The position numbers and the translations under genes are program-made. Shown here piece by piece: positions 34,991 to 37,823 of a stretch of 64,000 nucleotides of DNA (position 1 is its first letter; each line of letters starts with the position of its first letter). The notes under the pieces are model-generated. The model had not been told where the DNA came from. It searched no databases and worked only from the letters and a program-made list of their open reading frames with translations. Source of the DNA: Anthocerotibacter panamensis C109 (lineage in GTDB: Bacteria > Cyanobacteriota > Cyanobacteriia > Gloeobacterales > Anthocerotibacteraceae); assembly GCF_018389385.1 (NCBI RefSeq), contig NZ_CP062698.1, positions 2,297,501 to 2,361,500 of the forward strand, read 5' to 3'.

Positions 34991-35018
34991 CCTTAGTCCC
35001 TTAAGCTGTCACAGATGA

Positions 35019-35340
35019 GGTGCCTCTTTAAAGCAAAAGGGTACTTCTTTAAAGCAAAAGGGTACTTCTATCAAAGAACAAAGTACCTCTATCAAAGAAC
35101 AAGGTACCTCTTTCAAAGAACAAGGTACTTCTTTTAAGCAAAAGGGTACTTCTTTCAAAGAACAAGGTACCTCTATCAAAAAACAAGGTACCTTTATCAA
35201 AGAACAAAGTACCTCTATCAAAGAACAAGGTACCTCTATCAAAGAACAAAGTACTTCTTTTAAGCAAAAGGGTACTTTTTTCAAAGAACAAGGTACCTCT
35301 TTCAAGCAAAAGGGTAGACGTTTGAAAGAAAGAGGTACTG
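35019..35340. repeat. fifteen tandem 21-bp repeats
   Basis: Units start every 21 bp from 35019. Most begin GGTACYTCT and end either in ATCAAAGAACAA or in TTTAAGCAAAAG, so two sub-types alternate. The last complete unit (35313) is diverged, and a partial unit follows. Because the period is a multiple of three, several frames stay open. On the plus strand the units would read GTS(I/F/L)K(E/Q)(Q/K), with synonymous third-position changes, but an in-frame TGA precedes the first unit and no start codon exists. The array lies between the metH relic and the CRISPR cassette. Confidence 0.95.
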
Positions 35341-35388
35341 ATAGCTCAGATCTGGCTATTTTGCAGCGCTACCCTGGGAAACGCCTCC

Positions 35389-35461
35389 CTGCCCTACCCT
35401 AACGGATACAAGCACCCTAGCGGGTACAAGCACCCTAGCGGGTACAAGCAAGTGCCTGTCC
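35389..35461. repeat. left inverted repeat of the CRISPR cassette, three 18-bp iterons
   Basis: Starts CTGCCCTACCCT and ends CTGTCC. Inside are three tandem 18-bp units of the form GGGTACAAGCACCCTAGC. Its reverse complement aligns end to end with 37057-37147, which has four iterons; the 18-bp length difference is exactly one unit. Confidence 0.9.
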
Positions 35462-35472
35462 TCCGCTAGGGG

Positions 35473-35508
35473 GTTGGGGGCTTTTACGGCTCAAAGAGGC
35501 AGCACATC
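35473..35508 (-). repeat. degenerate terminal CRISPR repeat
   Basis: Aligned to the array repeat, 19 of 36 positions match, including an 11-bp uninterrupted core CTCAAAGAGGC. It lies 37 bp before the first good repeat, exactly one spacer length. A decayed repeat marks the old, leader-distal end of an array. Confidence 0.6.
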
Positions 35509-35545
35509 GAGTGGTGCACCTTAAGTCGATGCGTGGCGGTCCAGC

Positions 35546-36694
35546 GTTTTCAACTAATCGCCCTCAAAGAGGCGTGAAGACCGGAATCGTCGACGTGGCC
35601 GAAGTGCAGCCGCTCAACTTCGACATGTTTCCAACTAATCGCCCTCAAAGAGGCGTGAAGACACCTGGTGTTGGCGCTGTTGATGTCGCTATACAGCTAG
35701 CATGTTTCCAACTAATCGCCCTCAAAGAGGCGTGAAGACTAACAACATGGCTCTGGACACCGGCATCGGTACCTGTGGGTTTCCAACTAATCGCCCTCAA
35801 AGAGGCGTGAAGACTTCGGCGACAACATGATCATGTCGTTCCCGGCGAGTTTCCAACTAATCGCCCTCAAAGAGGCGTGAAGACCTTTTGCCGTTTCGAC
35901 GTCTCCTGGTCCTCGTCCAGGTGTTTTCAACTAATCGCCCTCAAAGAGGCGTGAAGACACGACCGAGACGACGTGGACGATTCCATCCACCCTTGTTTCC
36001 AACTAATCGCCCTCAAAGAGGCGTGAAGACGAGTGAGAGAGTACGAAGCCGATGTGCAAAAACAGCTCGGTTTCCAACTAATCGCCCTCAAAGAGGCGTG
36101 AAGACATTTAAAAACGCTAATTAAGGAGTAAAAACATGCCCTCGTTTCCAACTAATCGCCCTCAAAGAGGCGTGAAGACAGGTACAAATATAATTTTTGT
36201 TCGGAGGACCGCGTGTTTCCAACTAATCGCCCTCAAAGAGGCGTGAAGACACTACAGAGTGTCCGTTAGCAAAATATTTGTGGTACAGTTTCCAACTAAT
36301 CGCCCTCAAAGAGGCGTGAAGACTCCAGGTATGCTCAACAGACGCGGTGCAGTCCCTGGCGATGTTTTCAACTAATCGCCCTCAAAGAGGCGTGAAGACA
36401 TCATTTTAAGAGGGCAATGCGGTTCTACAATGGCTGGGTTTTCAACTAATCGCCCTCAAAGAGGCGTGAAGACATGAACTTAGCAAGATTTGAATCAGAG
36501 ATCGACTTCGTGTTTTCAACTAATCGCCCTCAAAGAGGCGTGAAGACTGGTCAAAGCTGTCCGCGAATTCGCGTGGACGGTCTGGTTTCCAACTAATCGC
36601 CCTCAAAGAGGCGTGAAGACATTCAGGACAGGGTAGGCCAGCTCCAGGTATCGCGCATGTTTCCAACTAATCGCCCTCAAAGAGGCGTGAAGAC
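35546..36694 (-). CRISPR. CRISPR array, 16 repeats of 36 bp and 15 spacers
   Basis: Repeats begin at 35546, 35627, 35704, 35779, 35849, 35923, 35995, 36070, 36144, 36215, 36288, 36364, 36438, 36512, 36585 and 36659. On the plus strand the repeat starts GTTTCCAACTAATCGCCCTC and ends AAAGAGGCGTGAAGAC. The fifth base is T instead of C in repeats 1, 6, 12, 13 and 14; otherwise repeats are identical. A CGCC-TC/GA-GGCG stem with an AAA loop is present. Spacers are 34-45 bp, mostly 36-40. I infer transcription on the minus strand because the decayed repeat is at the left, a leader and cas2 fossil are at the right, and the minus-strand repeat ends in GTTGGAAAC. No intact cas gene lies nearby. Confidence 0.98.
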
Positions 36695-36885
36695 CCTACC
36701 CATAGTAAGCCTTGCCCTGAGCGGACTTCAATAGCCCATTGCGACGACCTCGTTAATAGAGCACTATCCAGACAACCAAAGCCCACCCTCCAGAGCCTCC
36801 AAACCCTTACCCAGAGCAGCAGCGACGGCCTAGACGAAGGAATGCCCCTTTCAAGGATTTCAGTAGGTCGTCGCATCAAATCCCT
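36695..36885 (-). promoter_or_regulatory. presumed CRISPR leader
   Basis: A 191-bp stretch between the last repeat and the cas2 fossil, without a convincing gene. It contains an 11-bp perfect inverted repeat, TGCGACGACCT (36740-36750) and AGGTCGTCGCA (36865-36875). Position downstream of cas2 and before the array is where leaders lie; it is not notably AT-rich. Confidence 0.55.
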
Positions 36886-37008
36886 CTAGACCGAGTAGTA
36901 AGACGGCTGTTCCAGAGGCGGGTCGCCCCCCCAAGTGATGATACTAGAACGCATCCCTCCAGCAATGGGATAAAACCGAACCGAATCCTCATCCACTCCC
37001 CCATACGC
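36886..37008 (-). pseudogene. cas2: C-terminal fossil of cas2
   Basis: The minus strand encodes a 40-residue tail ending in a TAG stop at 36886: the block VDEDSVRFYPIAGG followed by WGGDPPLEQPSYYSV. The DEDSVRFYP strand and the GG-x-PP...YY-V tail are typical of Cas2 C-termini, the spacer-integration nuclease-fold protein. An in-frame TAG lies directly upstream (37009-37011), and the N-terminal half (the conserved YDI-type start) is absent; the right inverted repeat begins 46 bp further. So the gene is a remnant. Its orientation and place (cas2, leader, array) match a normal adaptation-module arrangement. Confidence 0.72.
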
Positions 37009-37056
37009 CTATTGACCAACATCAAGACCAACGCATCCCCAAGCGGAGCCCGAAAA

Positions 37057-37147
37057 GGACAGGTAAGTGCTTGTGCCCGTTTGGGTGCTTGTGCCCGTTA
37101 GGGTGTTTGTGCCCGTTTGGGTGCTTGTGCCCGACAGGGTAGGGCAG
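37057..37147. repeat. right inverted repeat of the CRISPR cassette, four 18-bp iterons
   Basis: Starts GGACAG and ends AGGGTAGGGCAG, the inverse of the left copy. Four tandem 18-bp units of the form TGCTTGTGCCCGTTTGGG lie between. Each unit can form a small GGG...CCC hairpin. Confidence 0.9.
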
Positions 37148-37246
37148 AGGGCATTTCACAAACCAGTTAGGCTTGCTAGATAAGTTTAATTTTAATAAAA
37201 GAGGGATGACCCGATAGAGAATAGAGGTAGATTTTGGGGAACAACT

Positions 37247-37447: not shown

Positions 37448-37823
37448 TGGTGGAGCTGAGGGGAGTCGAACCCCTGTCCACCCGTAACTAGTAGCCGCTC
37501 ATTCGTCCACAGGCTTGTCTCCGCTGACCCTTGGAGTGGGGTCCTCACGACCCGGAGGCGGGGTTTTTCTGGTTATCTTAGCCGGGGGACACCCAGAAGC
37601 GTCATCCTGGAGCGACCGATGGGGTTTGTCCACTTAATTCATCGGTGTCGTCAAGTGAACCTCTCAAGTCTTTTAGGGACTTAAGCTACGGCAAGCGCAG
37701 CTTTGCGAGAGAAAGGTACGATGTTGTTCGCATGTACTTTGTTTTGACCTGAGTTTACGAGGTTCGGGTCCGCTCGGCCTGCATGAAAGGGGTTCATTAG
37801 GGTGTCGAAACCGTTTCAGCCCC
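37448..37823 (-). ncRNA. ssrA: transfer-messenger RNA (one-piece)
   Basis: The 5' end (37823) reads GGGGCTGAAACGGTTTCGAC and the 3' end has GGGGTTCGACTCCCCTCAGC followed by TCC and an encoded A-CCA, so the tRNA-like ends pair (GGGGCTG/CAGCTCC). The tag frame gives A-NNIVPFSRKAALAVA then TAA (about 37732-37683). tmRNA with SmpB frees stalled ribosomes and tags the product for proteolysis. The molecule is 376 nt with mature ends in the normal order. Confidence 0.96.

Follow-up and report, generated by a model that had tools for sequence, protein, structure and literature searches.

A cas-less satellite CRISPR array related to a type III-B locus and flanked by two copies of a dispersed MITE-like repeat in Anthocerotibacter panamensis C109

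In this analysis, we characterised a CRISPR array and the inverted repeat arms around it in a 64,000-nucleotide stretch of the Anthocerotibacter panamensis C109 genome (hereafter the window; C1:2297501-2361500 of the single contig of 4,187,797 bases, or 4.19 Mb). We are confident that the array is a cas-less satellite that came from, or has been homogenised with, the complete type III-B locus of the same genome, and that the two arms are separate copies of a dispersed repeat. The initial annotation of the region had offered two readings, a mobile CRISPR cassette with the arms as its ends, or two independent repeat insertions that chanced to flank the array, and it is the second that is borne out by the dispersed copies of the repeat and by the absence of the right arm at the paralogous locus. 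The tempting claim of a new type of mobile CRISPR cassette is thereby removed, and what takes its place is an ordinary history of array duplication or exchange, cas1-cas2 loss and stray repeat insertions. In this genome a cas-less satellite array coexists with a complete type III-B system, and the two show evidence of having exchanged sequence, which makes the locus a clean natural example.

The arms and the dispersed repeat to which they belong

The arrangement first described, in which three versus four tandem 18-bp units lie in opposite orientation around the array, its leader and a cas2 fragment, was confirmed in both letters and coordinates. The exact outer 12-bp inverses (CTGCCCTACCCT, at 35389-35400 on the + strand and 37136-37147 on the - strand) and the inner ends (CTGTCC at 35456-35461 and GGACAG at 37057-37062) were likewise found. 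Complementarity between the arms is 82-84% over 62-67 bp, and the window holds seven matches to the unit at ≤3 mismatches versus 0.11 expected from shuffles. The limits originally given for the arms were too short, although the letters quoted were correct, as the arms are parts of a longer element (Table 1), of whose consensus the outer 12-mers and the inner ends are also parts. The two arms are truncated at different points, the left being without the outer terminal inverted repeat (TIR) and the right without the inner half.

Table 1. Features of the array region, with positions counted from the first letter of the window
Feature	Position	Strand	Description
21-bp minisatellite	35018..35338	.	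about 14 units; precedes the left arm and likewise the paralogous III-B array
Left arm	35379..35500 (about)	+	incomplete copy of the dispersed MITE-like element; AAACGCC, 3 x 18-bp units, CCTGTCCTCCGCTAGGGGG, TTTTACGGCTCAAAGAGGC; without the outer TATAGCAAGCC end
Three 18-bp units	35396..35449	+	ACCCTARCGGRTACAAGC; in the left arm
Leader-proximal 45 bp	35501..35545	+	43/45 identical to the paralogous III-B leader
CRISPR array	35546..36694	+	16 repeats (GTTTYCAACTAATCGCCCTCAAAGAGGCGTGAAGAC), 15 unique spacers of 34-45 bp
Array trailer and 3' part of cas2	36695..36991	-	295/297 identical to the intact III-B locus
cas1 scrap	36992..37056	-	with internal deletions; PFRAPLGDALVLMLVN and RRMGE; main block 39/48 identical to the III-B cas1
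Right arm	37057..37178 (about)	-	second partial copy of the MITE-like element, in opposite orientation to the left arm; TAGCAAGCCTAACTGGTTTGTGAAATGCCC, 4 x 18-bp units, ACTTACCTGTCC; inner end cut off where it meets the cas1 scrap
Four 18-bp units	37069-37140		in the right arm
tmRNA	37448-37823		

The arms are members of a MITE-like repeat family. At ≤3 mismatches, the 18-bp unit occurs at 31 places in the genome versus eight for a reversed control pattern; once chance-like matches are set aside, about 13 well-supported loci remain, each holding one to four units. That the arms differ by one unit would reflect this variation in unit number among copies. A BLAST search with the element consensus returned 29 clusters, among which several are short fragments, and we place the number of element sites in the genome at about 25-29. 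The best (longest) copies are 95-214 bp, non-coding and bounded by imperfect terminal inverted repeats, and copies read in register have the order TATAGCAAGCCTAACTGGTTTGTGAAACGCCCCCCCGCCCT, units, AATTACCTGTCCTCCGTAGGGGGATGGGGAGCCC, GC-rich palindromic core and GGGGGCTTTTACGGCTCAAAGAGGCTTGCTATA, with the 18-bp units forming the variable core of the repeat. TATAGCAARCCT ends are present on both sides of the 2487k, 2896k and 3852k copies, the inverted match becoming imperfect further in. As regards a target-site duplication, a TA borders some copy ends (3852k, 459k and 168k) and not all, and both window copies are truncated. The element looks like a MITE with its partner absent or unrecognised, its transposition being putative. 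At ten copies the largest neighbouring open frames were judged by eye to be ordinary genes, with no transposase recognised, and no autonomous copy or partner with TATAGCAAGCCTAACTGG ends was seen at the copies whose flanks were checked. One element fragment (C1:902843-902877) lies within an apparent open frame resembling, by eye, a polyketide synthase.

The earlier likening of the arms to transposon ends thus has some merit in that they belong to a MITE-like family, but no transposase with matching ends was seen at the copies whose surroundings were inspected. The proposal built upon it is that the arms are the ends of a non-autonomous mobile cassette, and that a transposase supplied in trans acts on the 18-bp sites and moves the array, leader and cas remnant as cargo. 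The arms are indeed inverted, of similar length and furnished with iterated sites. However, their truncation points differ, no transposase was recognised by eye in the largest open frames next to the ten copies, and the iteron block is scattered singly in the genome, which argues against a cassette. Nearest-neighbour gaps between clusters are at least 20 kb except for the window pair, at 1.6 kb (0.28 close pairs would be expected if copies fell at random), and no second pair of element ends, such as would mark an autonomous element, lies 0.5-20 kb apart in the genome. Since no other pair of copies occurs within 20 kb, there is no other cargo in the host genome of the kind that the cassette reading predicts.

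A complete element copy (C1:3852679-3852886; L073:1501-1708) starts about 30 bp beyond the final repeat of a different CRISPR array, with 169 repeats (3852.5 kb), a placement that favours the cassette reading. With this copy and the two arms, three separate insertions lie beside CRISPR arrays, versus 0.16 expected (p about 6e-4) under a rough and post hoc intergenic model that assumes 13% intergenic sequence and in which both the zone width and the intergenic share were set after the fact. This excess over a rough estimate is not ordinary and counts against our interpretation of the arms as stray insertions. No copy near the fourth array, of about 98 repeats (C1:about 4013-4019 kb and on), appears in the BLAST list.

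The satellite array and its type III-B paralogue

The region had been described as a relic cassette, which is apt for the truncated cas2, and for a cas1 scrap that is also present, but not for the array itself, which is intact with 16 perfect repeats. All repeats equal the consensus exactly, except for C/T at position 5. The relics are cas2 and the cas1 scrap only, with the cas2 remnant comprising about 35 codons with a stop at 36886-36888 and a break at 36991. Between the arms there is no open frame of at least 80 aa, and none of tnsB, tnsC or tniQ was found there. Searches of the array and its spacers against phages gave no match, and the array repeat was found in none of the viral contigs.

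Only two loci carry the repeat GTTTYCAACTAATCGCCCTCAAAGAGGCGTGAAGAC. The other is an array 267 kb away (C1:2602068-2603208) that forms part of a complete type III-B locus (C1:2601.6-2604.8 kb), whose genes encode Cas10b, Cmr3, Cmr4, Cmr5, Cmr6, Csx1, Cas1 and Cas2 (cmr2-6, csx1, cas1 and cas2). Having the same repeat and leader as the locus with cmr2-6, the window array is of type III-B. The two loci share the left arm (94% identical outside gaps), leader, repeats and trailer, whereas the right arm is absent from the III-B locus. Their homology begins inside the minisatellite, at window position 35104 in the main alignment or about 35006 in overlapping alignments, and ends at 36991, so that the shared sequence extends about 365 bp beyond the left arm and stops 65 bp short of the right arm. 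It follows that the limits of the copied unit lie elsewhere than at the arms. A mobile cassette bounded by the arms was rejected, as the copied unit runs from about 35006 to 36991 of the window and not from arm to arm. The existence of a paralogous array without the right arm and with shared sequence outside the left one is further evidence against the cassette, and together with the dispersed single copies of the element it leaves that reading hardly tenable.

These homology limits also bear on a second alternative, which is that homologous recombination between dispersed inverted copies moved the array segment to its present place without transposition. The copies at many loci, and a left arm common to both array loci, would furnish substrates for such an event. 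Nevertheless, the homology between the loci does not stop at the left arm but reaches into the minisatellite, and on the other side it gives out short of the right arm, which places its junctions outside the element, and we regard this alternative as very improbable. In the closest relative searched, other genes lie beside the tmRNA and there is no directly comparable empty site.

The window and III-B arrays have no spacers in common, the 15 window spacers all differing from those of the paralogue, which hints that the window array may take up spacers actively. In the III-B array, spacers 8 and 9 are identical and represent a duplicated repeat-spacer unit (C1:2602616-2602727). Two short resemblances in the window were also observed. 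CTCAAAGAGGC (35490-35500) is an exact match between the right end of the element and the CRISPR repeat, and 16 of its 17 copies in the window are the array repeats; this sharing is possibly a coincidence. Spacer 15 (36621-36658) contains GACAGGGTAGGCCAG, one letter different from the right-arm outer end GACAGGGTAGGGCAG, a similarity that is probably due to chance.

The cas1 scrap has its only fit in the III-B cas1, as comparisons with the other cas1 genes of the genome gave no significant match. Over the 48 bp of its main block it is 19% diverged from that gene, with seven of the nine differences synonymous, whereas the adjacent trailer and cas2 piece has two differences in 297 (99% identical; Fisher p = 4e-7). 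The juxtaposition of a diverged and mostly synonymous scrap with a nearly identical piece indicates that the locus is a mosaic, which probably arose from homogenisation by gene conversion between the CRISPR loci. The simplest account, based on the pattern of substitutions, would be that a cas1-cas2 module formerly present at the window locus itself diverged under constraint, that most of both genes was then lost, and that the array flanks were homogenised with the III-B locus; the last of these steps is read from a scrap of just 48 bp. The same shortness lends some weight to a variant in which the window locus is a degraded sister of the III-B adaptation module, of segmental origin and with no later exchange, whose cas1 scrap has diverged faster by chance and whose arms are again stray repeats. 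The order of array, cas2 and cas1 remains recognisable, as that variant would predict. However, it must accommodate the synonymous bias, unexpected in a free-running pseudogene, and the two differences in the adjoining 297 bp, and we consider it unlikely, if still credible.

Returning to the preferred explanation, of a satellite array with two separately acquired repeat copies, the left copy is upstream of the leader at both array loci and would predate the separation of the two arrays. The right copy, found only at the window locus beside the cas1 remains, may have arrived independently or been left behind by deletion. This order of insertion is inferred from one paralogue; the right arm may formerly have been at the III-B locus and later lost, though that locus has kept cas2 and cas1 intact. 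The 99% identical trailer would have come to lie beside the 19%-diverged scrap through recombination or gene conversion between the loci, whose spacer contents have become entirely different. Because perfect repeats have been kept and the leader-proximal sequence is nearly identical to that of the III-B locus, the window array can be expected to be served in trans, with transcription, processing and extension presumably involving Cas1-Cas2, Cmr and Csx1 from that locus. Any role of the flanking repeats for the array would be hypothetical.

The 18-bp unit in other genomes

The iteron unit, as an exact pattern, is absent from 291 other cyanobacterial genomes. Where the element consensus matched relatives, the match was mostly to its GC-rich palindromic core (query about 122-177), which is common to many cyanobacteria, and not to the iterons. 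Viral contigs yielded three and six unit matches, about the number estimated by chance, and those read were located in unrelated sequence; plasmids gave two weak Borrelia matches and phages none. A literature search with the letters of the unit found no paper apparently related by title.

Among 84,980 genomes, and setting aside the window's own, the exact tandem unit was found in one Omnitrophota MAG (G325), which has 103 unit places at ≤3 mismatches versus none for the control. With a slightly broadened pattern, matches were obtained in 11 of 145 Omnitrophota genomes (control, one in all), including G325, G327, G333, G336, G339 and G342 (e.g., L114:5911-5946; loci L148-L220). The units there are single, tandem or in inverted pairs about 150 bp apart, their contexts are unrelated to one another, and in 57 of 80 runs the unit follows AT. 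Some are flanked by short imperfect direct repeats (AAGATAT-unit-AAGATAC and AGTCCAT-unit-AGTCCAT). We treat mobility of the unit in Omnitrophota as a lead only. It is conceivable, and in our judgment decidedly unlikely, that TACCCTNRCGGGCACARGC is a micro-site, either recognised or mobile, which this cyanobacterium has in common with the unrelated phylum Omnitrophota, which can insert singly between short direct repeats and grow into tandem iterons, and whose carriers in this genome prefer the sides of CRISPR arrays. If TACCCTNRCGGGCACARGC were bound by a common protein, it would define a novel class of dispersed sites of very short length. The cross-phylum unit is a puzzle separate from that of the array.

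Comparison with known systems

In being short, non-coding and multi-copy, with imperfect TATAGCAAGCC TIRs and frequent truncated copies, the element resembles prokaryotic MITEs, from which it differs by the variable 18-bp tandem unit in its core. Repeated short sites near the ends of Tn7-like and CRISPR-associated transposons also recall the arms, although this is resemblance alone: the window has no frame of at least 80 aa between arms that are not the ends of a copied unit. The array itself is comparable to satellites of type III-B systems, which have the same repeat, leader and trailer as a locus elsewhere that supplies the effector and adaptation genes, with the difference that the window satellite has cas remnants only.

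A near parallel is Haloquadratum walsbyi HBSQ001, in which a residual CRISPR without cas genes has a MITE (HqIRS37) at the locus (PMC3119063). There too an orphan array has the leader and repeat of a complete system, but that system is in another strain rather than in the same genome, and the MITE is inside a spacer of an array with only five complete spacers (PMC3119063), whereas the copies described here are outside an intact array. More broadly, IS insertions in cas genes are known across 57 genera, with a similar pattern for MITEs (PMC10359306), and IS elements sometimes border CRISPR-Cas systems in the Sulfolobales (PMC4390879). The window locus is akin to these cases of mobile elements in cas genes or bordering CRISPR-Cas (PMC10359306, PMC4390879), except that it has no sign of an insertion having inactivated cas1 or cas2. 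As MITE-bearing residual arrays and IS or MITE insertions at CRISPR-cas loci have both already been described, the arrangement in A. panamensis is of a known kind.
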